Shown here in pieces: positions 6,554-45,187 of a DNA stretch of 64,000 nucleotides; position 1 is the stretch's first letter, and the number at the start of each line of letters is the position of its first letter. The translations under genes and the position numbers were made by a program. The notes under the pieces are model-generated. The model ran no database searches. It saw only the letters and a list, made by a program, of their open reading frames with translations, and had not been told where the DNA came from. The DNA comes from Geothrix sp. 21YS21S-4 (GTDB taxonomy: Bacteria; Acidobacteriota; Holophagae; Holophagales; Holophagaceae), in assembly GCF_030845995.1 (NCBI RefSeq), contig NZ_CP132719.1, positions 2,170,001 through 2,234,000 of the forward strand, given 5' to 3'.

Positions 6554-6934
6554 ATGCCGAAGCCCCAGAAGCGCATCGAGCCCGGCGCCCCGCCCCAGGA
6601 TTTTCGGGCGGCGGTTCTCGCGGTGGTGGCGCGGATCCCGCGCGGCCAGTTGGCGTCCTACGGCCAGGTGGCGCTCCTGGCGGGCTTCCCCCAGCGCCCG
6701 CGCCAGGTGGGGATGGTGCTGTCGGGCCTGCCGGAGGGCACGGATCTGCCCTGGCACCGCGTGGTGAACACCCAGGGCTACGTCCCCAGCCGGGGCCGGT
6801 GGTGGGGCGCCTTCGAGCAGATCGGGCGGCTGCGGGAAGAGGGCATCGAGGTGGACGACGAAGGCAATCTGGACCTGGAAGCGCACCGCTGGAGCGGAAC
6901 GCCGACCAAGCCAAAGGCCCGTCGCCGCCCTTAG
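6554..6934 (+). CDS. Alkyltransferase-like protein (ATL), MGMT family
   Basis: 126 residues. It matches the DNA-binding domain of O6-methylguanine-DNA methyltransferase: ARIPRGQLASYGQVALLAGFP, RQVGMVLSGLP, then PWHRVVNTQGYV. The active-site Cys of the usual PCHRV motif is Trp67 here. This is the hallmark of ATL proteins, which bind O6-alkylguanine lesions and flag them for nucleotide excision repair instead of repairing them. Starts immediately after the DUF2203 stop. The tail is basic (PTKPKARRRP). Confidence 0.88.
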   Translation: MPKPQKRIEPGAPPQDFRAAVLAVVARIPRGQLASYGQVALLAGFPQRPRQVGMVLSGLPEGTDLPWHRVVNTQGYVPSRGRWWGAFEQIGRLREEGIEVDDEGNLDLEAHRWSGTPTKPKARRRP

Positions 6935-6967
6935 GTTCCGTCAGGTACACTGGAGGCGGAGGGGCCC

Positions 6968-7203
6968 ATGAAGGTTCGCGTATCGGTGCAGTTGAAGCCC
7001 GGAATCCTGGATCCCCAGGGCAAGGCAGTGGAACAGGGCCTCCACGGCTTCGGCTTCGCGGTTGAGCACGTGCGCATCGGCCGCCTCATCGAGCTGGAGA
7101 TCCCCGGCGACGATCCCGCCGAGGTGAAGGCCAAGGCCCAGGCCATGTGCGACAAGCTGCTGGTCAATCCGGTGATGGAGAAGGCCTCCATCGAGGTGGT
7201 CTG

Positions 7204-7204
<1 letters not shown>
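6968..7204 (+). CDS. purS: Phosphoribosylformylglycinamidine synthase subunit PurS
   Basis: 78 residues, the usual size. KVRVSVQLKPGILDPQGKAV and VRIGRLIELEI are PurS marks. PurS, PurQ and small PurL together make formylglycinamidine ribonucleotide from FGAR in purine synthesis; PurS bridges the other two. TACACTGG at 6946-6953 and a GGAGG-rich leader precede the ATG. The TGA overlaps the purQ ATG by one base. Confidence 0.95.
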
Positions 7205-7902
<698 letters not shown>

Positions 7903-8019
7903 GAGGCCATTTGGCCCCCGTCCCGGGGCTTGTGAAAATTCCATCCCCGCAAATTGGATTTCCTGTCATCCTTCCTGGGACGCCCCGGTGGGCATATCTA
8001 TTTATTCCCGAGCCGAGCC

Positions 8020-8877
8020 ATGAGCGAATCGGAAGCGAAGAACCTCCAGAACTTCACCAGCGGCCCCCTCCGCCTGGCGATCCTCAAACGGGACCCGGTC
8101 CCCTCCAAGCTGCTGCCCGCCCGGGACGCCTGGACGCTGCTGCAGCCCACCCACGCGGTGCGCGTCTGCACCAACGAGGACCGGGAAGAGGGCGTGATCC
8201 GCTCCGGCGACCTGGCCCTGCTGCTGCCGGGCTTCGGGCACACGCTGAAGCGCCACCACGCCAACACGCCCTTCGGCTTCACGGCGCTGTTCCTGGAAGG
8301 CCCCTTCCCCGAGCCGCTCCTGTCGTCGCTCCAGAATCCGCCGCGGAAGTGGCAGGAATCCAGCTTCGCGGTGCTCCGCAGCCTCAGCCTCAAGCAGCTG
8401 TTCAGCATTTTCAGCCAGGAGCTGTCGAATCCCGACGGCGTGCAGCTGATGACGCGCGAGCTGTTCCTCATCCTCCTGGGCGCCGAGCTGTCCCGCCTCA
8501 CGGAGAAGGAGGACCGGGGCCGCTTTCCGTACCGCCTCAACCGCTCGACGCTACAGCTGGTCCTGGACCACATGGAAGCCCACATCGGCTCCAAGAACAG
8601 CGTGCCCGAGCTGGCCACCATGGCCCGCTGCACGCCGGATCACTTCATCCGCCTGTTCCGCGAAGCCACCAGCACCACGCCCCACCAGTACCTCATCGAG
8701 CGCCGCCTCCAGCGCGCGGTGACCCTCCTCGCCAACGGCGAGCGGCCGAGCGACGTGGCGCGGATCCTCGGCTTCTACGACGCCAGCGCCTTCACCCGCG
8801 CCTTCAAGCGCCGGTTCGGCGTGCCGCCGAGCGAATACGCCCAGGAGGCGTACGAGCGGCAGTTCCCCAAGAGGTAG
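8020..8877 (+). CDS. AraC-family transcriptional regulator
   Basis: 285 residues from the ATG at 8020 (MSESEAKNL); a TTG 66 bases upstream in frame is less likely. The first about 170 residues form an unrecognised cupin-like sensing region (RSGDLALLLPGFGH). The last 100 carry the two helix-turn-helix motifs of AraC proteins: VPELATMARCTPDHFIRLFREATSTTP, then a linker and VARILGFYDASAFTRAFKRRFGVPPSEY. The target is unknown; no metabolic gene is paired with it. A strong bidirectional terminator follows. Confidence 0.88.
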   Translation: MSESEAKNLQNFTSGPLRLAILKRDPVPSKLLPARDAWTLLQPTHAVRVCTNEDREEGVIRSGDLALLLPGFGHTLKRHHANTPFGFTALFLEGPFPEPLLSSLQNPPRKWQESSFAVLRSLSLKQLFSIFSQELSNPDGVQLMTRELFLILLGAELSRLTEKEDRGRFPYRLNRSTLQLVLDHMEAHIGSKNSVPELATMARCTPDHFIRLFREATSTTPHQYLIERRLQRAVTLLANGERPSDVARILGFYDASAFTRAFKRRFGVPPSEYAQEAYERQFPKR

Positions 8878-8883
8878 CGAAAA

Positions 8884-8906
8884 AAAGGGCGCCCGCGGCG
8901 CCCTTT
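8884..8906. terminator. Bidirectional intrinsic terminator
   Basis: Perfect stem GGGCGCC (8887-8893), loop CGC, GGCGCCC (8897-8903), flanked by A-run on one side and TTT on the other, so that it works in both directions. It lies between the converging AraC gene and the Lys/Ala-rich protein gene. Confidence 0.8.
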
Positions 8907-8924
8907 CACTTGATGCGGAAACGC

Positions 8925-9284
8925 CTACTTGGCGGCCTTCGCGGTGAGGTCCTTGGCCTTGGCCGCGCCCTTGCCCGAGCCCGACTTCCCCTTGGCTTTC
9001 GCCTTGTCGCTCCCCGCCTTGGCGGCGCTCTCACCCTCGGCCGTGGCAGCCTTCACCTTGTCGCCGGCCACCGGAACGCCGCCGGCCTTGGCGTCCACCT
9101 TGGTCTTGGCGGAGGAGGCCTTCTGATCGGCCTTCGCCTTGGCCTGGTCCGCCTTGTCGTCGGCCTTGGCCTTGCCCTTGTCGACGGCCGCGTCCGCGGC
9201 GCCCTTCAGGTCCGCCTTCGAGGGGATCTGGGCGACCAGCGCGAGGGAAGCAGTCATGAGCAGGACGATCGGGAAACGTTTCAT
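8925..9284 (-). CDS. Secreted Lys/Ala-rich low-complexity protein
   Basis: 119 residues. Signal peptide MKRFPIVLLMTASLALVAQ, then about 100 residues made almost only of Lys, Ala, Asp, Gly, Ser and Thr in repeats such as KAKADDKADQAKAKADQKA, with no aromatic residue and no Cys. It resembles LEA-like or histone-H1-like tails and is predicted to be disordered or loosely helical. ATG with GGAG 7 bases upstream. A TTGACA at 9337-9332 on this strand may be its -35. Function unknown. Confidence 0.75.
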   Translation of the reverse strand: MKRFPIVLLMTASLALVAQIPSKADLKGAADAAVDKGKAKADDKADQAKAKADQKASSAKTKVDAKAGGVPVAGDKVKAATAEGESAAKAGSDKAKAKGKSGSGKGAAKAKDLTAKAAK

Positions 9285-9438
9285 CGGATCTCCTTGAAGG
9301 GGTGAACCAGCGTGCTCTGGGCGCCCGAACGCTGTCAACGGCCCGGGAGCCGCCTTCCGCCGATGGCCGGGCACCGTTCGCCGATCCCCGATTCCACGGT
9401 CCTGGAGGGCCGCCCACGCTGATCCCGGAGGTTCCCGC

Positions 9439-9624
9439 ATGGCCGCATTCCTGCTCTGGCTCATCCTGCTGGCGGTCTGCTGGCCCCTGGCTCTCCTCGC
9501 GCTGATCCTCTATCCCCTGATCTGGCTGGTCCTCCTCCCCTTCCGCATCCTCGGATTCGCGGTAGAGGGGACCTTCGGGCTGGTGAAGGGGCTCTTCCTG
9601 CTGCCCGGGCGGCTGCTTCGCTGA
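9439..9624 (+). CDS. Small hydrophobic membrane protein
   Basis: 61 residues, nearly all hydrophobic (LLWLILLAVCWPLALLALIL, then further Leu/Val/Phe-rich segments) and ending in a basic GRLLR. It would form two membrane helices. GGAGG 8 bases before the ATG supports it as a real gene. It sits 82 bases before glutamine synthetase. Function unknown. Confidence 0.65.
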   Translation: MAAFLLWLILLAVCWPLALLALILYPLIWLVLLPFRILGFAVEGTFGLVKGLFLLPGRLLR

Positions 9625-9705
9625 CTGCCGTTTTGACAGAACGGCAAGGTGGCCCTGTTTTGTTGATCTCTCGATCTAGAATGGCCGGGTCCCGTGGGAG
9701 GCCCC

Positions 9706-11124
9706 GTGTTCAACGGTTTCGAGCAGGCCCGGCAGTTCATCCAGGCGAAAGCGATCCGGATGATCGACCTGATCTTCAGCGACCTGTGGGGCCGCTGGCA
9801 CCACGTCAGCATTCCCGCCTCCCAGTTCAACGAGCAGCTGATGCGCGACGGCGTGGGCTTCGACGGCTCCAGCGTGGGATTGAAATCCGTCAAGTCCGGC
9901 GACATGGTGCTCATCCCCGACCTGGCCACCGGGTTCCTGGATCCCTTCTGGGAAACACCCGCCCTCGGCTTCATCTGCTCCGCCTTCGAGGCCGACACCA
10001 AGGCTCCCTTCTCCGTGGACCCGCGGAACATTGCCATCCGCGCGGAGGCGTACCTGAAGGAGACGGGGATCGCCGACGGCAGCATCTGGGGACCGGAGTA
10101 CGAGTTCTACGTCTTCGACAAGGTGAGCTACGAGAACGGCGTGAACACCGCCTCCTACCGCGTGGACAGCCGCGAGGCGGACTGGCACAGCGGCGAGGGC
10201 GGCCACGGCCACTTCATCCCCCTCCACGGCGGGTACCACGCCATGCCGCCCAAGGACCAGCTCTACAACCTCCGCGCGGAGATGTGCGCCGAACTGGAGC
10301 GCATGGGCATCGACGTGAAGTACCACCACCACGAGGTGGGCGGCCCCGGCCAGTGCGAGATCGAGACGCCCCTCTTCCCCCTGCTGAAGGCCGGCGACGC
10401 CACGCAGATCGTCAAGTACGTGGTGAAGATGGTGGCCCACCGCCGGGGCCAGACGGCCACCTTCATGCCCAAGCCGCTCTACGGCGAGGCGGGCAGCGGG
10501 ATGCACTTCCACCAGATGCTGATGAAGGGCGGCAAGAACCTCTTCTACGACGAGCAGGGCTATGGCCGGATGAGCCAGGAGGCCCTCTGGTACATCGGCG
10601 GGATCCTCGCGCACGGCCCCGCGCTCCTGGCCCTCACCAATCCCAGCACCAACAGCTACCGCCGCCTGGTGCCGGGCTTCGAAGCTCCCGTCAGCGCGTT
10701 CTTCTCCCTCGGCAACCGCTCCGCCGCCATCCGCGTGCCCAAGTACGCGGACCAGCCCGAGACCGCCCGCTTCGAATTCCGCCCGCCCGACGCCACCTGC
10801 AACGTCTACCTCGCCCTCGCCGCCCAGCTCCTGGCGGGCATCGACGGCATCCAGAAGAAGATGGATCCCACCGCCCTCGGCTTCGGGCCCATCGATCAGA
10901 ACATCTTCAGCTGGGACGAGGAGCAGCGGAAGAAGATCAAAAGCCTGCCCACGAGCCTCACCGAAGCCTGCGACGCGCTGGAAGGCGACATGGACTTCCT
11001 GCTGGCCGGCGGCGTCTTCGATAGGCTCCAGTTGGAGGATCTGCTCCGCCACCTGCGGAACCAGGAAGCCGCCGTCCGCAACCGGCCCCACCCCTACGAG
11101 ATGGCGCTCTATTTCGAGGCCTGA
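9706..11124 (+). CDS. glnA: Glutamine synthetase, type I
   Basis: 472 residues, close to GSI length. It makes glutamine from glutamate, ammonia and ATP. Seen: VGFDGSSVGLK, WGPEYEFYVFD, the long GGPGQCEIE, the ATP/metal motif GEAGSGMHFHQ, NPSTNSYRRLVPGFEAP and FEFRPPDATCNVYLA. The usual adenylylation Tyr site is NIFSWDEE here, with Phe401 in its place. The GTG at 9706 is chosen because GGGAGG lies 5 bases upstream; a GTG at 9694 overlaps that box. TAGAATGG at 9677-9684 is a possible -10. Confidence 0.95.
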   Translation: MFNGFEQARQFIQAKAIRMIDLIFSDLWGRWHHVSIPASQFNEQLMRDGVGFDGSSVGLKSVKSGDMVLIPDLATGFLDPFWETPALGFICSAFEADTKAPFSVDPRNIAIRAEAYLKETGIADGSIWGPEYEFYVFDKVSYENGVNTASYRVDSREADWHSGEGGHGHFIPLHGGYHAMPPKDQLYNLRAEMCAELERMGIDVKYHHHEVGGPGQCEIETPLFPLLKAGDATQIVKYVVKMVAHRRGQTATFMPKPLYGEAGSGMHFHQMLMKGGKNLFYDEQGYGRMSQEALWYIGGILAHGPALLALTNPSTNSYRRLVPGFEAPVSAFFSLGNRSAAIRVPKYADQPETARFEFRPPDATCNVYLALAAQLLAGIDGIQKKMDPTALGFGPIDQNIFSWDEEQRKKIKSLPTSLTEACDALEGDMDFLLAGGVFDRLQLEDLLRHLRNQEAAVRNRPHPYEMALYFEA

Positions 11125-11164
11125 GGCCACCGCCCCCGAGCGGCGCCCGCCGCTAGGATGAGGG

Positions 11165-12151
11165 ATGGCCTCCCCATCCTCGGAATCACGCTCCCGCGGC
11201 TTTCGGCGCGCCCTGCTGGCGCTGCCTCTGGCCCTGTGGATGGGCCTAGCGTTGGCCCTGCGCCTGCCCCTTCCCCCGCTCCTGGCGGGGGCCGTGGGCC
11301 TGCTGGTGCCCTCGGGAGGGCTCGCGCTTTTGGCGCGGGGCCCCCGCGGCCGGGGCTGGGCCTGTTTCCTGGGCCTCTTCGCGGCGGTGTTGGGGGGTTA
11401 CCTGGCGCTGCGCCCCTCCAATCACCGAGACTGGATGCCCGACGTAGCCCAGATTCCCTCCGGCACGATCAACGGCGACCGCCTCACCGTGCGCCACGTG
11501 CGGAACTGCCTCTACCGTTCGGAATTCGAGTACGAGCCCCGCTTCGAGGACCGCACCTACGACCTCAGGCGGCTCCAAGGGATGGATCTCTTCCTGGTGT
11601 CCTGGGGGCCCCGCCACATCGCCCACACCATCCTCTCCTTCGACTTCGGCGCGGGCGAGCACCTGGCTTTCTCCATCGAAACCCGCAAGGAGCGCCACGA
11701 AACCTACTCGGCCCTGCGGAGCTTCTTCCGGGAGTACGAGGTGTGCATCGTGGCGGGAGACGAGCGCGACCTCATCCGCCTCCGCACCAACCACCGCCAT
11801 GAGCAGGTGCGGCTCTACCGCCTGGTCACGCCGCCCCAAGGCCCCCGCCTGCTGCTGGAGGACTACCTCGCGCGCCTCAATGGGCTGGCCGAGCGTCCCG
11901 AATGGTACAACGCCCTCACGGCCAACTGCACCACAGCCATCCTCGGCCCCGTCCGCCGGCACACCCGGCGGCTGCCCTGGAGCTGGAAGCTAGTGGCCAG
12001 CGGCCATCTGGACGAGTACCTCTACGACCAGGGCTTCCTGGACCGCAGCCTTCCCTTCCCGCAGCTGCGCGAGCGGGCCCTCATCAATGAGCAGGCTGAA
12101 AGGGCCGATCAGGATCCGGCCTTCAGCCTCCGGATCCGCGAGGGACGCTAG
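11165..12151 (+). CDS. DUF4105 membrane-anchored protein
   Basis: 328 residues. Three hydrophobic segments in the first about 85 residues, then a DUF4105 (Lnb N-terminal periplasmic type) domain: LTVRHVRNCLYRSEFEYEP, YDLRRLQGMDLFLVSW, IAHTILSFDFG, LAFSIETRKERHE, and the conserved Asn/Cys segment YNALTANCTT. The family's role is not settled; the periplasmic face is inferred. The ATG at 11165 is only 5 bases after TAGGAT. It converges on purL. Confidence 0.82.
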   Translation: MASPSSESRSRGFRRALLALPLALWMGLALALRLPLPPLLAGAVGLLVPSGGLALLARGPRGRGWACFLGLFAAVLGGYLALRPSNHRDWMPDVAQIPSGTINGDRLTVRHVRNCLYRSEFEYEPRFEDRTYDLRRLQGMDLFLVSWGPRHIAHTILSFDFGAGEHLAFSIETRKERHETYSALRSFFREYEVCIVAGDERDLIRLRTNHRHEQVRLYRLVTPPQGPRLLLEDYLARLNGLAERPEWYNALTANCTTAILGPVRRHTRRLPWSWKLVASGHLDEYLYDQGFLDRSLPFPQLRERALINEQAERADQDPAFSLRIREGR

Positions 12152-12164
12152 GGCCGTTTCGGGG

Positions 12165-14465
12165 TCAGCCCAGGGCCGTTTCCAGAGCTTCGGCGTGGAT
12201 CGCCTTCAGGTCCGCGGCGGCGGCGTCCAGCAGGGGCTGGCCGTCCACGGCGAGGGTGACGCGGGCGCCGCCGGTGGTGCCGATCTTGGCGAAAGGCACG
12301 CGGTGGGCAGCGCAGAGGGTGGCGAGGCTGCCCTCGCCCTCGGGCCCGACGCTCACCACGATGCGCCCGACGCTCTCGCCGAACAGGAGGCTATCCAAGC
12401 GGAGAGTCCCCTTGGTCAGCATCAGCTGGCAGCCCATGTCTCCGCCAAACCCGCTTTCGAGCACCGCCGTCAGCAGGCCGCCCTCGCTGGTGTCGTGGGC
12501 GCTGCGGATCAGGCCCAGGCGGATGCCCTCGCGCACGCAGGCCTGGAGCCGCAGTTCCTCGTCGAGGCGCAGCTCGGGACAGGCCCCTTCGACCCTGCCG
12601 GTCCGCACTTTGAGGTACTCGCTGCCGCCCAGTTCGTCGCGGGTCTCGCCCAGAAGGAAGATCCCGTCGTGGGCCGCCCGGAACGCCGATCCGCAGATGC
12701 GGTTGCCGACCTTCGACAGGGCCGTGGCATCCGGCGCGTCCACGGCCACCTGCCCGGCGCAGTCCTCCACCAGGCCAACCGCCGCGATCATCGGTGTCGG
12801 GAAGATGCTCTGGCCTTCGGTGTCGTTGTAGAGGCTCACGTTGCCGCTGACGATGGGCACGTCGAGGGCGAGGCAGGCCTGGCGGATGCCCAGACAGCCC
12901 TGCTCGAAGGTCCACATGTTCTCGGGCTTCTCGGGATTGCCGTAGTTCAGGCAGTCCGTGAGGCCGATGGGCTCCGCCCCCACGCAGGCGAGGTTGCGGC
13001 AGGCCTCGGCCACGGCGTGGGCCGCGCCCCAGAAGGGATCCAGGTAGCAGAAGCGGCTGTTGCAGTCGCTGCTCATCGCCACGGCCTTGCCGGTGTCCTT
13101 CCCGGTTTCGTCCTTCACGCGGATGATGCCGGCGTCGCCCCGGCCCATGCCCAGCAGGGTGTTGCTCCGCACGGTGCCGTCGTACTGCTCGAAGATCCAC
13201 CGATTGCTCGCGACGGTGGGCGCCTGGAGCACCTGACGGAGCGTCCGCTCCACTTCGGCGGGCTTCAGGTCCGCCGGCAGCGGCGCGGCGTTCACCGCAT
13301 CCAGGTAGCCGGGCCGCTCGCGGGGCCGGTCGTATTTGGGGGCGGCGTCCACCAGGGGCTGGATGGGGAGGTTGATGACGGGCGCGCCGTGCCAGCTGCC
13401 GATGAAGCGGCCGCTGTCCGTGACCTCGCCCACCACACAGGCGTCCAGACCCCACTTGTGGAGGACGGCGATGATGTGGGGCTCGCAGCCCGGCCGGGCC
13501 ACCAGCAGCATGCGCTCCTGGCTCTCGCTGAGCATCAGCTCGAAGGGCGTCATGCCCTCCTCGCGCTGGGGCACCTGGTCCAGGCGGATCTCCAGGCCCG
13601 TGCCGGCGCGGCTGGCCATCTCGAAGCTGCTGGAGGTGAGGCCCGCGGCGCCCATGTCCTGGATGCCGATGACCCAGTCCGTCTGGAAGATCTCCAGGCA
13701 GGCTTCGAGCAGCAGCTTCTCCGTGAAGGGATCGCCCACCTGCACCGTGGGGCGCTTCTCCTCGCTGCCCTCGCCGAATTCCGCCGACGCCATGCTGGCG
13801 CCGTGGATGCCGTCGCGGCCGGTCTTGGAGCCGATGTACATCACCTTGTTGCCGACGCCGGAGGCGAAGCCCTTGAAGATCTTGTCCGAGCGCAGCACGC
13901 CCAGCGTGAACGCGTTCACCAGGATGTTGCCGTTGTAGCTGGCGTCGAAGGCGGCGTCGCCGCCCAGCATGGGGATTCCCATGCAGTTGCCGTAGCCCGA
14001 GATCCCCGCCGCCACGCCCTTGACGAGGCCCTTCATCCGCGGCGCGTCCAGCTCTCCGAAGCGCAGGGAGTTCAGGTTGGCCAGGGGCCGGGCGCCCATG
14101 GTGAACACGTCGCGCAGGATCCCACCCACGCCCGTGGCCGCGCCCTGGTAGGGCTCGATGAAGCTGGGGTGGTTGTGGCTCTCCATCTTGAAGGCCACGG
14201 CCCAACCGTCGCCGATGTCCACCACGCCCGCGTTCTCGCCGGGCCCCTGGATGACGCGGGGGCCCTCCGTGGGCAGGTTCTTCAGGTGGATGCGGCTGGA
14301 CTTGTAGGAGCAGTGCTCGCTCCACATGGCGCTGAACACGCCCAGTTCCGAATACGTCGGCAGGCGGCCGTCCAGGAGGCGCAGGATGACCTGCCATTCG
14401 TCCTTCGACAGGCCCAGCTCCAGAGCCAGGGATTCGGTGACGGCCGGTTCGTGCGCAGCGGACAT
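12165..14465 (-). CDS. purL: Phosphoribosylformylglycinamidine synthase subunit PurL
   Basis: 766 residues: the small, bacterial PurL that works with PurS and PurQ. It starts with the typical [12 protein letters not shown], then [54 protein letters not shown] and later [11 protein letters not shown] and HDTSEGGL. All three FGAM synthase subunits are thus in the window, but purL is on the opposite strand from purSQ. The ATG has GGAG upstream and TAGAAT at 14490-14485 as a possible -10. Confidence 0.97.
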
Positions 14466-14526
14466 GGAGGCTCCGGAAGCCTTGATTCTAGCGATTCCAC
14501 GCCCTCCAAAGGAGGCTTGACTTCCC

Positions 14527-15669
14527 TCAGGGCGCCTCGGATTCCACCGGCGCCATCGGCGATTCGCCCCCCTCGTAGGTGCGGCGGAGCACGCCCTGGA
14601 CCAGCCGCTGGAAGAAGGTCCCCCGCTCGGGATTGAACACGATGGAGACCGCCGCCTTGTGTTCGCCGCCCAGCTCCAGCAGCGGACCGCCCTCCACCCC
14701 CGCGGTGCCCAGCAGAAGGAGGGGCACCCGCCCCTGGGTCAATTCCGCCATGGCCTTCAGGCGCCGCCGCTCGTCCAGGCCCAGCGTGGGGAGGTGGTAC
14801 AGGATCAGCGCCGGATTCTGGCCCAGAGCCTCCTTGAGGGCGGAGACCGTGGATGCCACCCGGCGGAGGGGCTGGAGGCCGCCGAGGAGGTTCTGCAGGC
14901 AGGTTTCCAGCGCGCCGTCGCCCGAGACCAGCACCAGGCCCTTGGGCCGGGGAGGCTCCGCCTTGCCGCCTTCTCCGGGGGCGGCGGTCTCCACGCCGCG
15001 GCGGGCGATCCGCTCCAGATCCTCCTCCCGCCGCTCGAAGACCCACCGGGACAGGGGATGGAGCACCCGCTCGTCCAGCTGCGGGCGGTATTCCACGCCG
15101 AAGGTCCGGCCGTGGACGTGGCGGACCTTCACGCGGGTGTTGATCCGGATGGCTTCGGTGAGGGGAATGGTCACCGCCATGTCGTCCCCGGGCTGGAGCT
15201 CCCCCTGGCCGAAGTCGCGGGTGCTGAAGACCCGCGCGCCGGTGGTGCTGATGTCCACCAGGGTGCCGGTCACCAGGTCGTACTTGGGGGTGCTGAAGGT
15301 GACGGGAACGCGGCCCACCCGCTCCACCCGGTAGGCCTTGCGGTGATCCTCCTCCTGCAGGAGCTCCGGGATCGCCAGGCGGAGGCTACGCCGGCCCTCG
15401 GCGATCCCGAACCCCTTGAGCTGAGTCGCGCCTTCCAGGAAGCTCACCCCGTGGGGGAAGCGCATCCGCAGGTCGGCGTTGCGCAGCCCGTAGGTGGCGT
15501 CCTCCCGGCCCATGGTGGCCGCGGCCTGAAGGTCCCCGCCCTCCAGCCTCAGGAAGGAGGATTCGAAACGGAGGTAGGGCGTCACGAGGATCAGCAGCTC
15601 CCGCCGGTCGCAGGCGCGCTTGAAGATCTCCTCGATGGTTTCAGGGTTGCGGATCAGATGGCCGGTCAA
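14527..15669 (-). CDS. PilZ-domain protein with receiver-like C-terminal domain
   Basis: 380 residues from a TTG start with GGAGGG directly upstream. An N-terminal region (about 1-105) is followed by a PilZ domain (about 110-220: [17 protein letters not shown], then [12 protein letters not shown]), which usually binds cyclic di-GMP through an RxxxR and D/NxSxxG. Here the second motif is DISTTG. Residues about 250-345 look like a CheY fold: [29 protein letters not shown]. The phospho-acceptor Asp is missing (His in YHLP). Divergent from the radical SAM gene. Confidence 0.8.
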
Positions 15670-15694
15670 ACCCCCTCCGTCGCAGCAATGATCG

Positions 15695-15723
15695 TTTTCA
15701 TCCCAGCCTTCAGCCCGTACACT
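15695..15723 (+). promoter_or_regulatory. Candidate sigma-70 promoter for the radical SAM gene
   Basis: TTTTCA (15695-15700), 17-base spacer, TACACT (15718-15723), then GG. The ATG follows 23 bases later. The spacing and the recurrent TACACTGG box support it. It overlaps the start of the divergent PilZ gene. Confidence 0.5.
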
Positions 15724-15746
15724 GGAAAGCTGCGCCTTTGGATCCC

Positions 15747-17402
15747 ATGACGCCACCCCGAACTCTGCTTGCCTACAGCGCCCCCCGGAGCGGGTTTGGG
15801 GACGAGTGGATGACGTTTCTTCCCATTGGTCTCGGCTATTTGCAGGCGATGCTGAAGTCCAGGGACCTTCCCTGCCGCGTGGCGAACCTCAGCGGGAAGG
15901 GGCGGAAGGAGGTCGTCGCCTACTTCAAGGCCCAGGATCCGGCGGTGGTGGGGGTGTCGATGTTCACCTTCAACCGCAAGCGTTCCTATGAGTTGCTCGC
16001 CTGGGCGCGGGAGGCCTGCCCCGGCGCGATCCTCCTGACGGGAGGCCCCCACCCCACCCATCTGGCGGAGGAAGTCTTCGAAGATTGCCCGGCCCTGGAC
16101 GCCATCGTGGAGGGCGAGGGCGAGACCATCCTGCTGGGCGTGGCCGAGCGCCTGAAGGCCGCGCCGGGGTCCCACCTGTGGAAGCGGACGCCCGGGCTGA
16201 TCCTCCGGGACGGCCGCACCCCGGCCCAGCCGCCGCTGGAGGACCTGGACTCCGTGGGGATCCCCGCCGAACACCTGGAGGCGGACTTCCTGAACGACGT
16301 GGGGCAGTTGGCCTACCTCAGCACCAGCCGGGGCTGCCCGGCCACCTGCAACTTCTGCAACACGCCCGAGTTCTGGGGCGCCTCCATCCGCTTCCGTAGC
16401 GCGCCCTCGGTGCTGCGGGAAATGCGCCTGCTGCGCGAGCGGCACGGCTTAACCTACTTCAGCTTCCGGGACGACACCTTCACCGCCAACCGCGGGCGGG
16501 TGCTGGAACTGATGGACGGCATCCGCGCCAGCGGGCTCCACCCGCTCTGGAACTGCCAGAGCCGGGTGAACCTCGTGGACGAGGACCGCCTGGTGGCCAT
16601 GAAGCGCGCGGGCTGCGAGTTCATGCAGTTCGGCGTGGAGCACGGCAGCGAGCGCGTCCTCGCCCTCCTCGACAAAGGCACCAACCTGCGCCACGCGCGC
16701 CGAGCCCTCAGCCTGGTGCGGAAAGTGGGCATGAACCTGGGGATCTACCTCATCACCGGCATTCCGGGCGAGACCTGGGCCGACGTGGAGGAGACCGCCG
16801 GCTTCATCCGCGATACCCGGCCCCAGGACTGCCAGATCAGCCCCCTGGCCCTCTATCCCGGCACCCGGATGTTCGACCAGTACCGCGCCGAGGGGCGCAT
16901 CCGGAAGGACTTCTACCGCGCTTCGGGCGACGCCGAGATCTTCGCCCGCGTGGACGCCCACACGGAGAAGGCCCTCCGCCACCTCGACCGCGAGGCCCAG
17001 CAGGCGAAAGCGAAATCCAGGTTCACCCCCGCCGAGTTCGCCGACCAAAAGCGCTGGCTGGGCTTCTGCGCCGTCACCAACCTGCTCTGCGGTGAGGCTG
17101 CCGAAGAAGAAGGACGGTTCACGGAAGCCGAAGTCGAGTACGCCGAGATCATCGCCCAGGAACCCGCCAACCCCTGGGGGTTCATGAAGCGGGCCCTCCT
17201 GCGGGAGAAGCTGGGCCAGGCCGACCGCGCCCGCGCCGACCTCGCCGAAGTCCTCGCCCTCGCGCCCGGCAACCCCGAAGCCACCGAACTGGCCGCCCTC
17301 TGGGGCCTCAAGCGCGGGAAAACCCGCGCCAAAAAGCCCGCCCACGGACCCACCGCCGAGATGAAGGGCGCCGAAACCTACCTCGGCCGATCCAAACCGT
17401 AG
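15747..17402 (+). CDS. B12-binding radical SAM protein with C-terminal TPR region
   Basis: 551 residues. The N-terminal about 150 residues look like a cobalamin-binding domain (FLPIGLGYLQAML, VGVSMFTFN, ILLTGGPHPT, AIVEGEGE). The radical SAM core has the 4Fe-4S motif C197-x3-C201-x2-C204 in SRGCPATCNFC, followed by YFSFRDDTFTAN and FGVEHGSERVLALLDKG. The last about 110 residues contain a TPR pair (AEVEYAEIIAQEPANPWGF, ADLAEVLALAPGNPEA) and a basic tail. The substrate is unknown; related proteins methylate or rearrange unactivated carbons. ATG chosen over an in-frame TTG 9 bases upstream. Confidence 0.85.
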   Translation: MTPPRTLLAYSAPRSGFGDEWMTFLPIGLGYLQAMLKSRDLPCRVANLSGKGRKEVVAYFKAQDPAVVGVSMFTFNRKRSYELLAWAREACPGAILLTGGPHPTHLAEEVFEDCPALDAIVEGEGETILLGVAERLKAAPGSHLWKRTPGLILRDGRTPAQPPLEDLDSVGIPAEHLEADFLNDVGQLAYLSTSRGCPATCNFCNTPEFWGASIRFRSAPSVLREMRLLRERHGLTYFSFRDDTFTANRGRVLELMDGIRASGLHPLWNCQSRVNLVDEDRLVAMKRAGCEFMQFGVEHGSERVLALLDKGTNLRHARRALSLVRKVGMNLGIYLITGIPGETWADVEETAGFIRDTRPQDCQISPLALYPGTRMFDQYRAEGRIRKDFYRASGDAEIFARVDAHTEKALRHLDREAQQAKAKSRFTPAEFADQKRWLGFCAVTNLLCGEAAEEEGRFTEAEVEYAEIIAQEPANPWGFMKRALLREKLGQADRARADLAEVLALAPGNPEATELAALWGLKRGKTRAKKPAHGPTAEMKGAETYLGRSKP

Positions 17403-39941: not shown

Positions 39942-39959
39942 AGCCCCCTTGCGGGGGCT
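39942..39959 (-). terminator. Hairpin at the 3' end of rnpB
   Basis: AGCCCCC / GGGGGCT with loop GCAA on the minus strand, directly after RNase P RNA. The following T-run is poor. The 207 bases between this and the GNAT gene hold nothing else I can support. Confidence 0.6.
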
Positions 39960-40318
39960 CCGGTGGACCGGTAAGCCGGGTTCTGTCGTGGAGCGTCATT
40001 CCTCTGGGATGGATGTCGCCATCCACCTCGTGCAACCTACCCGCCGGCTCGGCCGGGTCGACCCTCGCCGCTTGCGCGGTGCGCCGGCCTATTTGGTCTT
40101 GCTCCCTGGGGGGTTTACCGTGCCCGTCCTGTTGCCAGTCCGGCGGTGGGCTCTTACCCCACCGTTTCACCCTTACCTGTGATCCGAGGATCCATCGGCG
40201 GTCTGTTCTCTGTTGCACTTTCCGTCGGGTCACCCCGCCCTGGTGTTACCAGGCCCAGTACCCTGCGGAGCCCGGACTTTCCTCTGCCCTCGCGGACAGC
40301 GACGCCCTGATCCACAAG
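39960..40318 (-). ncRNA. rnpB: RNase P RNA, class A
   Basis: Read on the minus strand it has the universal core: GAGGAAAGTCCGGGCTCC near the 5' end, GCAGGGTACTGGGC, the AAGGGTGAAACGGTGGGGTA segment, GCAAGACCAAATAGG, and near the 3' end CGACAGAACCCGGCTTACCG. GTGGATC at the 5' end pairs with GGTCCAC at the 3' end as helix P1. The ends are estimated to within about 5 bases. It follows the exbD gene by only a few bases. Function: the catalytic RNA of tRNA 5' maturation. Confidence 0.95.
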
Positions 40319-40714: not shown

Positions 40715-41464
40715 TCACTTCAGCCGGAAGTTGAGCGTGAGGCGGAAGCTCGCCTGGACGGGCCGATCCCCGACGCGGGCCGGCTCGAAGCGCCACTGCC
40801 GCGCCGCCTGCAGGGCGGCCTCCCGAAGGAGGGGATGACCCTCCAGCGCCTGCACCTGAATGGGCGCGCCGGCTTCATCCACGACCATCATCAGGATCAC
40901 CGTCCCCTGGATCCGCGCGCGGCGGGCGAAATCGGGATACGCCGGTTCCACCCGGCGGAGGGCGACGAGGCCCGTGGAGGAGAAGTCGTGGATCTGCGCG
41001 GGACCCGCGGCCGCCGATCCCGACGACGCAACTCCGGGCACGGCGGGAAGCAGGCCACTCCCGACGAACCCGTCGCCGCTGTGATCCTCCGTCGGCAGGG
41101 TGCCCGCCGGAACCTGGGGGTCCGCGGTCGAGGCCACCCGAACTCCTTCGGCACTGGGAGCGGCCATCCCGCCGCTGCCCGCGCCCAGAGCCAGACGCAC
41201 GGTCGATCGAGCAGTCACGGGCTCTCCGAATTCGAAGATCCGCTCGGGCTGCGTGGGGGGCGCTGGACGCGAGACCAGGGGCGGCGCGAGCGACGCGAAG
41301 CCGAAGGTCACGCCGGCCAGGGCGAGGTAGATCAGGCCGGAAAAGAGGGCCGACCGCGCGGCGTCGGAGGGGGGAGCCGAGGCCGCGACGGCGCAGGGCT
41401 GGAGGGTGGGCGGCAGGTCCGGGAAGACAGGCCCCCGGCCGTGCCGGAGCGCGAAGTTGGACAT
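40715..41464 (-). CDS. tonB: TonB-family energy transducer
   Basis: 249 residues. Membrane helix at about 38-58 (ALFSGLIYLALAGVTFGFA), a Pro/Ala/Gly spacer with no long Lys stretch, and a classic TonB C-terminal domain: VALRRVEPAYPDFARRARIQG, VVDEAGAPIQVQALEGHPLL, AALQAARQWRFEPARVGDRP. It drives outer-membrane receptors with ExbD. ATG with AGGAGG upstream. This is the second TonB-like locus in the window. Confidence 0.9.
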   Translation of the reverse strand: MSNFALRHGRGPVFPDLPPTLQPCAVAASAPPSDAARSALFSGLIYLALAGVTFGFASLAPPLVSRPAPPTQPERIFEFGEPVTARSTVRLALGAGSGGMAAPSAEGVRVASTADPQVPAGTLPTEDHSGDGFVGSGLLPAVPGVASSGSAAAGPAQIHDFSSTGLVALRRVEPAYPDFARRARIQGTVILMMVVDEAGAPIQVQALEGHPLLREAALQAARQWRFEPARVGDRPVQASFRLTLNFRLK

Positions 41465-41669: not shown

Positions 41670-41770
41670 GGACCAAAATTCTTCTGACCACCAAAACGCC
41701 AAGAACAGAACGGGGGCTGGACGTGGCTTTTCCTGGTGTCTTCGCGCGCTGGTGGTGATCCTTCCGGGCT
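41670..41770. repeat. Palindromic CACCAAG element, copy 2 (degenerate)
   Basis: Left arm GACCACCAAAACGCCAAGAA and right arm CTGGTGGTGATCCTT at about 41750-41764 match copy 1, with a changed centre. It fills the 306-base gap between tonB and the 855-aa gene; the rest of the gap shows no gene. Confidence 0.6.
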
Positions 41771-44337
41771 CAGGCCGGAGGCAGGGGCAGCGCCCAGCCC
41801 TTCCGCTGCATGTCCTCCAACAGCCGCCACGCGGCCACGTAGGGATCCCCCGTATCGCCGCCCAACACCTCGTCCCGCAGCCGCACCTGGAGCGGCACCA
41901 ACTCGGGATGGAAGCTTCCGGCGAGCCCCGCGTCGGCCTGGAAGAGGCGCAGCAGCAGGGCCTCGGGATGGGCGTGGGCGAGGGCCGTGGCGCATAGGAC
42001 CGCGCCGCCCTCCCCTTCCACGGCCCCCGCCTCCAGAAGCCGATCCCTCAGCGGATGGAGCACCGCAGGATCCACGTCCAGGCCCACGCAGCGGAACACG
42101 GGGCTGCCTTCCAGGCGGTCGGGCACTTCCCCTTCGGCCAGCCAGGGGCACGGCGGGCGGTGGCCATCGTAGGGGAGCCACGGCATGAAGACTTCGTGCC
42201 GGTGGTCGTCGCGCACCCAGGCATGGATCAGGCGCATGAGGTCCACGCGGTGTGCCGGATTGGCCTCGGGGCCGATCCACACCAATCGCTGGACGGCGCG
42301 GGGCACGGGTTCCACGGGACGGAACCGATCCCGCCAGGGTTCCGTCTCCACGGGCATCCCGAGTCCCAGCCCGCCGAGGAAGGCGGGGAAACCGGGGTAG
42401 GGCGTGGGCAGGAGGAGGTTCGCCCCCTCGGGCGAGATCCGCAGGTCCAGCCCCGGGAAGCAGGCCTCCAGGGGGCTCTCCTTCAGCGTCTCCAGGAGCG
42501 AGAGGCGGTGGTCCTCGGTCCGCAGGGGCTCGATGAGCTTCAGGTGCCACATCCGCGCGTCCTCGTCGCAGGACCACGCCTCCAGCGCCGAGGGCTCGGG
42601 CTGGTCGAGGGCGTCCAGCCCCGCGAGCAGCAGGCGGATCTCCCCCGAGGCATGGCGCCACCCCGCGGGCGGCTGGGCGGGAATGCCCGCCAGGAGCCGA
42701 GGGCGACGCTGGGCGCGGGCCCAGGCCAGGCGATCCCAGGAGGCGCTGGACACGTCCTCGGAGACCTTAAGGAGACCGGAGAGATCGCCGGCAGCGATCT
42801 GGAGGTAGGCGTCGCTCCGCCGGATCTCCTGGTGGCCGACGAGGATCTCCCACGTCTCGTCCAGGTTCTTCTGGCCGATGCGGGCGAACTCGTCGCCCAC
42901 TTCCATCAGCCGCTTGCCGATGCGGACCAGGCGCTCCCGCTCCGGCGAGATCTTCGCCTCCACGCCCCACTGGCGACCCAGGGCCGATTCGATGGCCGCG
43001 GAGCGCTCGCGGACCTCGTGCAGGGACAACTCCGCCCGGTCGGCGGCCTGCCGCACCTGATCCACCAGGCCGAGGTGCGCTTCCAGCGCCCGCTCCAGAT
43101 CCTGCCCCTGGTGGTCCAGGTGGCCCGCCACGCGAAGCAACTCGTGAAGGCCCGCGCGAAGGTGATGGGTCACTTCCTGCAGATCCCACAGCCCGTTGGT
43201 CTCCCGCTCCAGCTCGCGCTGGTGCTGGTCCAGGGAGCGCTCGAGATCCGACGCGCCTTCGGAAGTCTGGTTCGCCAGGCTCCGCAGGCGCCCGCCGATG
43301 GCCTGGATGCCCGCGCTGCCCCCGCCCTTCTGGGCGAGGATGGCGGCGTTCACCGCGAGCAGCCCGGTCTGCTGGGCGGCCTGATCGATGATCCGCAGGG
43401 AACCGTGCGCCACGCCCAGAGAGCGGATCCGCTGCTGGGACTCGTCGCGGAAGGCATCGATCCGCCGGGCCAGGGCCTCGGCCTGGTCCCGCACTTCGTC
43501 GGCGGAATGGCGGAAGCGCTGGAGCTGTTCCGTGCGGCCCTTGGTCTCCTCCAGCAGGCGCGGGGTATGGGCCACCAGCCCCTTCACTGCCAGCCCCAGG
43601 CGGGCGCCCTGCCGGATGCTGGAATCGGCGAGGCGGCCAAGGATGTCCTCCTCCCGCCGCAGGCGGGGGAAGGTGGACTGGAGTTCCTCGAGGAGGTTCT
43701 CGAACTGATCCATCCCGGCCTGGGCCTGCTCCAGGGAGGTGCGGAGGGCCTGGCCCTGCAGCCGGTGCTGATCGGCCCGCAGGCGATGGTTCAGCTCGAT
43801 CTGGTCGAAGCGGAGGGGACCGTCGATGGCGCTCTTGAGATTCCGGCCGAAGGCGGAGAGGCGCTCCTGGGCCGAGGTGCGGGCGGCCATCTCCCGGCCG
43901 CGGCGCTTGTGGGCCTGGTCGAGGAGGTGATCCAGCTCCTCCCATTCGCGCCCGACGGCCTTCCGCAGGCGGTCCAGTTCCGTCTGCGTGCGGAGGTCCT
44001 CCTCCAGCAGGACGTTGAGGGCGGAGGCCGCCAGGACCAGCTCGCGGCGCAGTCCCGCCGGCGGCTCCTGGGGCGTGCGGTCCCCTTCCACGATGCGGCG
44101 CGACCAATCGGCGATGAATCCGTCCGGCGCCAGGCGGCGCTGCCAGAAGAACCACCGCCGCCCCACGAGCACCAACCCCGCGGCGGCCCCCATCAGGAGC
44201 GTGCCCTCCAGCGGCCGGAGCGCGGGCGAGGCCCGGAAGAGCAGGTAGGCCGAGGCGCCGAGGACCAGCAGCGTCACCGCGTCCCCCACCCAGCGGCGGA
44301 TCCCGATGCGTTTCCAGAAGGAGCCGTTCCGACCCAT
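41770..44337 (-). CDS. Large chemoreceptor-like protein with unknown C-terminal region
   Basis: 855 residues. Two membrane helices at about 18-36 and 44-62 with no periplasmic domain between, a long coiled coil, then a signalling-like hairpin (about 310-380): QAAQQTGLLAVNAAILAQKG then GGRLRSLANQTS. It follows the MCP tip pattern but lacks several conserved residues (the usual NAAIEAARAGE). After more coiled coil, the last about 300 residues form an alpha/beta region (VQRLVWIGPEANPAHRVDLM, HEVFMPWLPYDG) I cannot assign. Chemotaxis output is doubtful. Confidence 0.75.
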   Translation of the reverse strand: MGRNGSFWKRIGIRRWVGDAVTLLVLGASAYLLFRASPALRPLEGTLLMGAAAGLVLVGRRWFFWQRRLAPDGFIADWSRRIVEGDRTPQEPPAGLRRELVLAASALNVLLEEDLRTQTELDRLRKAVGREWEELDHLLDQAHKRRGREMAARTSAQERLSAFGRNLKSAIDGPLRFDQIELNHRLRADQHRLQGQALRTSLEQAQAGMDQFENLLEELQSTFPRLRREEDILGRLADSSIRQGARLGLAVKGLVAHTPRLLEETKGRTEQLQRFRHSADEVRDQAEALARRIDAFRDESQQRIRSLGVAHGSLRIIDQAAQQTGLLAVNAAILAQKGGGSAGIQAIGGRLRSLANQTSEGASDLERSLDQHQRELERETNGLWDLQEVTHHLRAGLHELLRVAGHLDHQGQDLERALEAHLGLVDQVRQAADRAELSLHEVRERSAAIESALGRQWGVEAKISPERERLVRIGKRLMEVGDEFARIGQKNLDETWEILVGHQEIRRSDAYLQIAAGDLSGLLKVSEDVSSASWDRLAWARAQRRPRLLAGIPAQPPAGWRHASGEIRLLLAGLDALDQPEPSALEAWSCDEDARMWHLKLIEPLRTEDHRLSLLETLKESPLEACFPGLDLRISPEGANLLLPTPYPGFPAFLGGLGLGMPVETEPWRDRFRPVEPVPRAVQRLVWIGPEANPAHRVDLMRLIHAWVRDDHRHEVFMPWLPYDGHRPPCPWLAEGEVPDRLEGSPVFRCVGLDVDPAVLHPLRDRLLEAGAVEGEGGAVLCATALAHAHPEALLLRLFQADAGLAGSFHPELVPLQVRLRDEVLGGDTGDPYVAAWRLLEDMQRKGWALPLPPA

Positions 44338-44397: not shown

Positions 44398-45132
44398 TCA
44401 GACCGTCCGCCACAACACGTCGTAGCTGCGGAGGCCGCCGCCCAACTCCTGGAGGAGCCGGGCCCGCAGCAGGCCCGTCACCATCGTCTGGGCCTGATCA
44501 GCCGGATCGGGCCGAGGCGCGGCATCGGCGCCTCCGGTCCGCAGTCGGCGGAGGTGCTCCCGCGCGCCGGCTGGCAGCGCTTCCGCCGGATCGACCGGGG
44601 TACAGGCCGCGCAGCACCAGCCTTCTTCCCCCAGCAGCACCAGCGCCGCGGTGTCGTTCCCGCACCGCCCACAGGCCCGCGGATGGGGAAGGAGCCCCAG
44701 GCAGTGGAGCAGCCAATGCTCGGCGTAGGCCAGGATGCCCAGGGCGTTGTCGGGATCGGCCCTGAGCGCCCGGCCGCAGGCGCTCAGCAGGCGGTACAGC
44801 CGGTCGTCCTCCACCCCTTCCCGGGCCACCCGGTCGAAGAGGTCCGCCAAGCACGCCATCACGAGGCTGGACTCCAGATGACCCAGGGTCAGCGGACTGA
44901 ACGCCAGCTCGCAGCGCGTGACGCGCTTCAACTCCGTGTGCTCCTTCCCGAAGAAACTGACCCGCACCATCCCCAAGGGCTCGAAGGCCGCCACCCACTT
45001 GGCGGTGGGCTTCTTCACGCCTTTGGCCAGACCGGTGAGGCGCTCCCCGTGCTCCGAGAGGAAGGACACCACCGCCCCCCCCTCGGCGAAGGGCACGGCC
45101 TTGAGGACGATGGCGGCGTGGGTCCGGATCAC
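44398..45132 (-). CDS. recO: DNA repair protein RecO
   Basis: 244 residues. OB-fold start (RTHAAIVLKAVPFAEGGAVV, LTGLAKGVKK), then the helical domain and a zinc site CGRCG ... CCAAC. RecO helps load RecA on gapped DNA with RecR. The GTG at 45132 is preceded by AGACTGGAAAC, giving a weak ribosome site. Upstream open frame shows no homology. Confidence 0.9.
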   Translation of the reverse strand: MIRTHAAIVLKAVPFAEGGAVVSFLSEHGERLTGLAKGVKKPTAKWVAAFEPLGMVRVSFFGKEHTELKRVTRCELAFSPLTLGHLESSLVMACLADLFDRVAREGVEDDRLYRLLSACGRALRADPDNALGILAYAEHWLLHCLGLLPHPRACGRCGNDTAALVLLGEEGWCCAACTPVDPAEALPAGAREHLRRLRTGGADAAPRPDPADQAQTMVTGLLRARLLQELGGGLRSYDVLWRTV

Positions 45133-45187
45133 GTTTCCAGTCTGCCCGGATTCAACCCGCGCCCTGCCGCCGGGTCTCACATGACGA

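Follow-up and report, generated by a model that had tools for sequence, protein, structure and literature searches.

Protein X is the label used here for an 855-amino acid protein encoded on the minus strand at positions 41770-44337 of the window, the 64,000-nucleotide stretch (positions 2,170,001 to 2,234,000 of contig NZ_CP132719.1) taken from the 3.08-Mb single-contig genome of Geothrix sp. 21YS21S-4. X is a conserved protein of chemoreceptor homology with a changed tip that is itself conserved, and it co-occurs with MCP3, a methyl-accepting chemotaxis protein (MCP) encoded together with CheA3 and CheW3 in a third chemosensory system of the same genomes. X may well be a membrane-anchored, chemoreceptor-like transducer with a cytosolic sensor resembling a solute-binding protein (SBP), acting as an accessory receptor or array modifier of CheA3-CheW3-MCP3, a reading to which about an even chance is given. 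In window coordinates X and its parts are:

41770..44337, minus strand: whole gene X, chemoreceptor-like protein with a C-terminal SBP-like domain, encoded by 46 of the 93 class genomes
44131..44322, minus strand: predicted membrane hairpin, residues 6-69, two helices and a short loop (AlphaFold2 helices 6-35 and 42-69; hydrophobicity and lysine/arginine pattern in 42 rows)
43993..44133, minus strand: residues 69-115, a stretch with weak likeness to HAMP (score 19.4 in hhalign, 15% probability)
43345..44046, minus strand: N-arm of the predicted coiled-coil hairpin, residues 98-331, helices 98-172 and 177-331 (AlphaFold2)
43258..43401, minus strand: altered chemoreceptor tip, residues 313-360 (MCPsignal match 313-402, position counts, conservation window)
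42817..43308, minus strand: C-arm of the predicted hairpin, residues 344-507 (AlphaFold2); the match to the canonical MCP profile spans residues 245-439
41773..42666, minus strand: predicted shortened SBP family 5-like domain, residues 558-855 (AlphaFold2, Foldseek, VIA, hhalign with nulls)

The reading frame, as given in the list of open reading frames (ORFs) of the window, opens with ATG, and all 42 full-length rows of the orthologue alignment have an ATG at -4 to +1 residues from the aligned start. These rows come from the 46 X-bearing genomes among 93 genomes of the class, the set in which both X (cut-off E<=1e-10) and MCP3 (cut-off E<=1e-60) were counted; omitted are G010, in which the gene is broken, and G031, G035 and G069, in which it is cut by contig ends. 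By protein search X is encoded in 45 of the 47 Geothrix genomes and in one genome of another genus (G076), whose protein is 33% identical to that of the window, and the ORF proposed by the first-pass annotation of this stretch is therefore real. The two Geothrix genomes without X are G005 (85% complete) and G011 (72% complete), and since a match to the neighbouring gene recO is missing from both as well, the locus itself seems to be absent from these assemblies. The C-terminal domain taken separately is matched in 29 of 396 genomes of the phylum, comprising 26 Geothrix genomes, G076 and two weak cases (E 0.002 and 0.003), with no convincing relative beyond Geothrix and G076 in that set; a scan of public genome contigs for the same domain yielded 34 loci, all titled Geothrix, Holophagaceae or, once, Acidobacteria bacterium. 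In the draft genome G010 (L058, contig G010:C86) a break between residues 467 and 491 splits the gene into two open frames, which may reflect an assembly error or a pseudogene. The proposal that X at large is a decaying pseudogene was rejected, as the tip is its best-conserved part, the gene is present in nearly all Geothrix genomes and the break is confined to G010.

Profile comparisons indicate that X is a real descendant of chemoreceptors. The Pfam family MCPsignal (PF00015) matches the X of the window with 30.3 bits, below the gathering score of 34.6, and orthologues fall on both sides of this score (39.9 in G007, 39.3 in G025 and 34.9 in G015 above it, 28.7 in G032 below), with E<=0.01 reached in 40 of 42. 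A profile of the X tip run against the ORFs of 26 loci recovers the other 20 MCPs of the source genome at E 9e-12 to 1e-5, the next ORF following at 0.17, and hhalign aligns the X hairpin with 23 canonical MCPs over 185 columns at E 2.2e-12. In the Foldseek list obtained with the full-length model, chemoreceptors appear from E 6.9e-5 onwards, mixed with further coiled-coil proteins, for instance Rad50 (E 1.5e-4), so that this list alone would not show the kinship. That model (AlphaFold2, 42 orthologues) has a mean predicted local distance difference test score (pLDDT) of 76.4 and a predicted template modelling score (pTM) of 0.45; in addition to the helices given above it contains a short one at 73-84 and an alpha/beta domain from about residue 558. 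As to heptad class, the model has helices of 155 and 164 residues on the two sides of the tip, and the N-arm would measure 215 residues if the HAMP register holds. X shares with MCPs including Tsr, the T. maritima receptors and B. subtilis McpB a membrane anchor, a long antiparallel coiled-coil hairpin, the LLAxNAAI tip core and a weak HAMP-like entry, but unlike them it has no extracytoplasmic sensor, its tip contacts are replaced, its tip loop is shorter than that of Tsr and it ends in an SBP-like domain.

Tsr positions were assigned to the tip through the columns of an alignment of X to Tsr (PDB 1qu7), which is weak as a match (i-Evalue 0.12) and was used for its columns only. The NAAI core is retained, with N330 and I333 present in 42 of 42 rows, and the X of the window keeps Tsr N381 (as N330) and R404 (as R352). 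F373, E385 and R388 are replaced by Q (36 of 42 rows), L (all 42) and Q (39 of 42; K in the window), and E391, V398 and E402 by G (41 of 42), A (37 of 42) and R (38 of 42); the F396 position holds I in the window and mostly M or L across the family, and the tip loop is one residue shorter than that of Tsr. Glutamate is gone from position 385 in every row and arginine from 388 in 41 of the 42. E385 and R388' are described as an ionic lock between dimers at which F396 stacks (PMC8144572). The trimer-contact residues chosen in a further study (PMC8466855) correspond by spacing, in a mapping made here, to F373, N381, E385, R388 and V398, and of these five N381 alone is kept in the window. Of the 17 canonical tips compared from the source genome, 16 lack F at position 373, so that E385, R388 and V398 carry the contact-residue test; canonical tips (these 17 and ten from G032) have E at 385 and K, R or H at 388, with 373 variable. 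Two further MCPs of the source genome (L015 and L020) escaped the tip pattern; inspected by eye, each carries E at 385 and H at 388.

Residues 321-340 form the best-conserved 20-residue window of X (93%, against a protein mean of 68%), which argues that the tip is not eroding. The first-pass annotation had seen correctly that the NAAI core is kept and contact residues are lost; its description of the tip as degenerate holds in the sense of altered and fails in the sense of decaying.

The C-terminal domain almost certainly has, to judge from its predicted structure, the fold of family 5 SBPs such as NikA, DppA and OppA. AlphaFold2 gives a confident model of residues 536-855 (42 orthologues; pLDDT 88.7, pTM 0.89), for which each of the 50 Foldseek rows listed from the PDB carries the description of an SBP or of a transporter complex with an SBP in it. 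The top match is NikA (3mvw, E 1.7e-7), which also ranks first with the full-length model (E 7.9e-7), and VIA aligns model residues 24-320 with residues 57-506 of the DppA chain of 4qfl (Z 15.2, 276 residues, root-mean-square deviation 4.3). Comparison of the domain with 21 family 5 SBPs by hhalign scores 40.4 over 83 columns lying around a PEPSALExW stretch (probability 42.6%, E 0.00026), against maxima of 25.8 in 100 column shuffles and 21.1 for nine neighbouring gene families; the score against eight short Holophagaceae SBPs is 22.6, which 4 of 100 shuffles equal or exceed. Pfam finds nothing better than E 0.059 in the C-terminus and no SBP_bac_5 (PF00496) at E<=1 (42 members), NCBIfam nothing past residue 494, and a PDB sequence search with the domain two weak matches (E 0.071 and 1.7). 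The C-terminus thus lies outside sequence families, yet its fold is recognisable from the model. The first-pass annotation had listed this region as unknown and proposed predicting its structure; the prediction bore fruit, and the region is unassigned in terms of sequence families only. X resembles SBP family 5 (including SapA) in the fold over the aligned model residues and in the 83-column profile stretch, but its domain is about 300 rather than about 500 residues long, some 200 shorter than NikA or DppA, is fused behind an MCP hairpin, is probably cytosolic and goes unseen by the Pfam model.

Two side observations concern similar domains. A short SBP family 5-like protein occurs in several Holophagaceae as open frames of 460-579 amino acids that match the first half of the Pfam profile only (C1:815070-815504 in the source genome, L182 and L184; L197, L202-L204, L206, L209 and L210 in relatives). 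In two MCPs of the source genome with canonical tips (L010 and L015) the hairpin is followed by a C-terminal domain that, by eye, looks similar.

The C-terminal domain very probably faces the cytosol. Lysine and arginine average 3.1 before the membrane helices (residues 1-18), 0.6 between them (36-44) and 2.6 after them (59-75) in the 42 rows, and the loop count equals that of the following stretch in one row only, which under the positive-inside rule would place both ends, and hence the rest of X, in the cytoplasm. The close membrane helices and the missing outside sensing domain reported by the first-pass annotation are borne out by this pattern and by the AlphaFold2 helices, the two lines from which the reading of the N-terminus as anchor and hairpin comes. 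A helix-turn-helix (HTH) was not matched in the N-terminus, where the membrane hairpin and coiled coil are found instead. Residues 69-115 show a faint resemblance to 20 HAMP domains from MCP ORFs (40 column shuffles mean 9.1, maximum 15.5), and HAMP was found neither by Pfam at E<=0.01 (42 members) nor, above 5 bits, by a single-sequence hidden Markov model (HMM) search. No ABC importer is present among the nine window ORFs scanned with Pfam.

Chemoreceptors with cytosolic sensors are already known. TlpD is described as having a cytosolic CZB ligand-binding domain that is coupled to a remote kinase interface by a long coiled coil (PMC12871147, preprint) and as interacting with CheW (PMC13001251); like TlpD, X would have a C-terminal cytosolic sensor, but the two differ in sensor type and TlpD has no membrane anchor. 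A homologue of the transcription factor SgrR, DsvR, is described as an intracellular regulator with an HTH and a C-terminal SBP_bac5 domain (PMC13060122, preprint). It is an earlier example of such a domain at the C-terminus of a protein inside the cell, although the output of DsvR is DNA-binding whereas X has a chemoreceptor hairpin. To our knowledge DsvR is without a membrane anchor. No chemoreceptor-like protein with an SBP family 5 domain is described in the literature searched, judged by titles and abstract openings, and the combination found in X of an altered, conserved tip, the absence of an outside sensor and an SBP family 5-like C-terminus is likewise missing there. A literature search on Geothrix motility brought nothing of use.

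With X counted, MCPsignal is matched 21 times in the source genome, which has nine CheW domains distributed over three places. The third place (L178, C1:1505000-1524000 of the source genome, at 6591-16856) is a divergent CheA3-CheW3-MCP3 locus with a histidine kinase and a regulator, comprising CheA3 (Hpt, HATPase_c and CheW), CheW3, two ORFs which we take to be fabH and rsmD, the 878-residue MCP3 (L178:10522-13158, with Pfam HAMP and MCPsignal above the cut-off), the histidine kinase and a response-regulator-like ORF. MCP3 occurs in 47 of the 93 genomes, namely all 46 that carry X and the incomplete G011, and is confined to Geothrix and G076; no genome has X alone and 46 have neither. CheW domains are found in 80 of the 93, so that X does not simply follow chemotaxis, and genomes of other genera that have many CheW domains but no MCP3 are also without X. 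Three Geothrix genomes that are 98-99% complete (G025, G015 and G007; L265-L267) have exactly two MCPsignal matches, MCP3 and X, together with two CheW matches each and the locus of CheA3, CheW3, MCP3, histidine kinase and response regulator. This co-occurrence points to a role of X in the third chemosensory system, whose locus is the candidate for the CheA/CheW partner that the first-pass annotation had suggested looking for.

The tip of MCP3 is altered at the same place as that of X. Positions 373, 385 and 388 are Q, I and Q in 36 of 36 MCP3 rows (tip and length rows include repeats of genomes), so that X and MCP3 both lack the E385/R388 pair, and on its N-side the X tip scores best with Geothrix MCP3 (21.9-24.3 bits, against 18.0 for the best canonical MCP). 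The distance from the HAMP end to the tip asparagine is 215 residues in 42 of 42 MCP3 rows and 124 in 17 of 20 canonical receptors with a HAMP score >5; X has the figure of 215 only if its weak HAMP register, with an end at residue 115, is correct, a register taken from hhalign since the single-sequence search gave none. A simple count from the ALN motif to the tip of X gives 222 residues in 35 of 42 rows, other LN pairs having been picked in the remainder. An equal length would matter because receptors are postulated to sort by length class (PMC2577667). X is therefore like MCP3 in the lost pair, in Q at 373, in occurring in the same genomes but one and, if the register is right, in length; MCP3 differs in its Pfam HAMP, its longer hydrophobic N-terminus (by eye) and the canonical C-side of its tip, and no SBP-like domain was seen in it. 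The MCP3 tip has a loop insertion of variable length.

Several observations weigh against a partnership of X with MCP3. Over the whole tip MCP3 (35.7 bits) is not the closest to X, being preceded by L016 (40.0), L010 (37.3) and L017 (36.0), and the X hairpin profile scores higher with canonical MCPs than with MCP3 (98.1 against 78.4, the MCP3 set being low in diversity). On the C-side of the tip MCP3 retains GFSVVADEI, residues that X has lost, and is not the nearest. MCP3 of G076 scores 17.1 on the tip N-side, under the best canonical MCP, and in that genome positions 373, 385 and 388 are K, L and E in X and Q, V and Q in MCP3, differing at 373 and 388. The tip loop of X (333-340) is modelled with pLDDT <50, and its gene lies outside the che3 locus, beside recO. 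The co-occurrence itself consists of one clade, Geothrix, and one genome of another genus, and could be produced by common descent; it is phylogenetically confounded, and Fisher's P of 6e-26 overstates the coupling.

An alternative is that X is a membrane-tethered coiled-coil scaffold of chemoreceptor descent outside CheA/CheW signalling, whose tip self-associates and whose SBP-like domain binds a protein. This would agree with the retention of N381 alone among the five trimer-contact positions, with the shortened SBP-like domain and with the position of the gene beside recO instead of che genes. The consensus for MCP methylation, [AGST][AGST]xx[EQ][EQ]xx[AGST][AGST], is likewise unmatched in the X of the window and, across the alignment, in 38 of 42 rows; it is, however, also missing from several canonical MCPs of the source genome, and F373, one of the lost contacts, is kept in only one of those compared. 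Co-occurrence with MCP3, and the presence of X beside MCP3 alone in three genomes, would not be expected of a free scaffold, and this alternative is considered unlikely. The first-pass annotation had suggested a non-chemotaxis scaffold: independence from ordinary arrays agrees with the three genomes that have no other MCP than MCP3, and the co-occurrence with CheA, CheW and MCP3 speaks against the rest. Its observation of the protein is confirmed and its interpretation partly supported.

A further alternative is that co-occurrence with MCP3 reflects shared ancestry and that X works elsewhere; it might, for instance, follow envelope turnover as a cytosolic sensor of peptides, or have a recO-linked function. 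The neighbours concerned are:

44398..45180, minus strand: recO, upstream neighbour of X, 60 bases away (Pfam RecO_N/RecO_C, synteny)
40715..41464, minus strand: TonB_C protein, downstream of X, adjoining it in some loci only (Pfam, synteny)

X directly follows recO in every compared locus that holds both genes, the gap between the two matches being 55-91 bases for 38 of the 44 loci (some genomes counted more than once), and peptides are the predicted ligands of most SBP family 5 members (PMC9602780). On the other side, recO and tonB stand in place and close together, with no X, in several genomes from other genera (G077 and G089 among them), and recO is the only one of the neighbour genes compared that adjoins X throughout, which is counted against this alternative as well; it is regarded as distinctly improbable. 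A link of X to TonB/ExbD was rejected, as in L063, L067, L082, L091, L096-L098, L102, L103 and L106 the next conserved gene follows X with no tonB match in between; in the Geothrix relatives L063, L091, L096-L098, L102 and L103 neither tonB nor exbD is matched between X and an MFS gene. In G093 the slot that X occupies in Geothrix between recO and tonB holds a canonical 530-amino acid MCP (L159:3647-5239, minus strand), which was rejected as the direct parent of X, its 32.9 bits with the X tip profile being mid-range among MCPs, and in G088 about 2 kb separate recO and tonB with no X match within. A promoter and terminator scan gave results at chance level. A bacterial RNase P class A RNA (281.8 bits) lies at 39956-40318 of the window on the minus strand, just past an ExbD-like ORF.

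That X belongs to the canonical Geothrix arrays as a regular, if divergent, receptor would fit its MCPsignal scores near the cut-off (28.7 to 39.9) and the C-terminal extensions seen by eye in L010, L015 and L016, MCPs of the source genome with canonical tips, but is very unlikely given the three near-complete genomes with X, no MCPsignal match besides MCP3 and only two CheW domains, the absence of X from CheW-rich genomes of other genera that lack MCP3, and the loss of Glu 385 in all rows and of Arg 388 in all but one.

If X is an accessory partner of CheA3-CheW3-MCP3, it is proposed that an X dimer stands on the inner membrane by its short helical hairpin and that the tip reaches into the cytoplasm at the end of a long rod of four helices. 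The SBP-like domain, which comes after the returning helix, would open or close on a cytosolic small molecule or peptide, or clamp a protein, and the change would travel down the rod. The X tip may pack with MCP3 tips, both being without the E385/R388 pair, and such mixed packing might bias CheA3. It is conceivable, and put forward tentatively, that a rewritten tip code (loss of the E385/R388 lock) allows an accessory non-canonical receptor to co-assemble in this way with a single dedicated receptor, and that CheA3 thereby combines information on an internal metabolite with a signal from outside or from the membrane. If this is true, a family 5 solute-binding fold that is normally found outside the cell has been built into the inner end of a chemoreceptor. 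The three Geothrix genomes with two MCPsignal proteins and one CheA/CheW locus would constitute a small natural test system, and such two-MCP genomes could show what replaces the E385/R388 lock of receptor trimers and by what means receptors belonging to different systems are kept separate.

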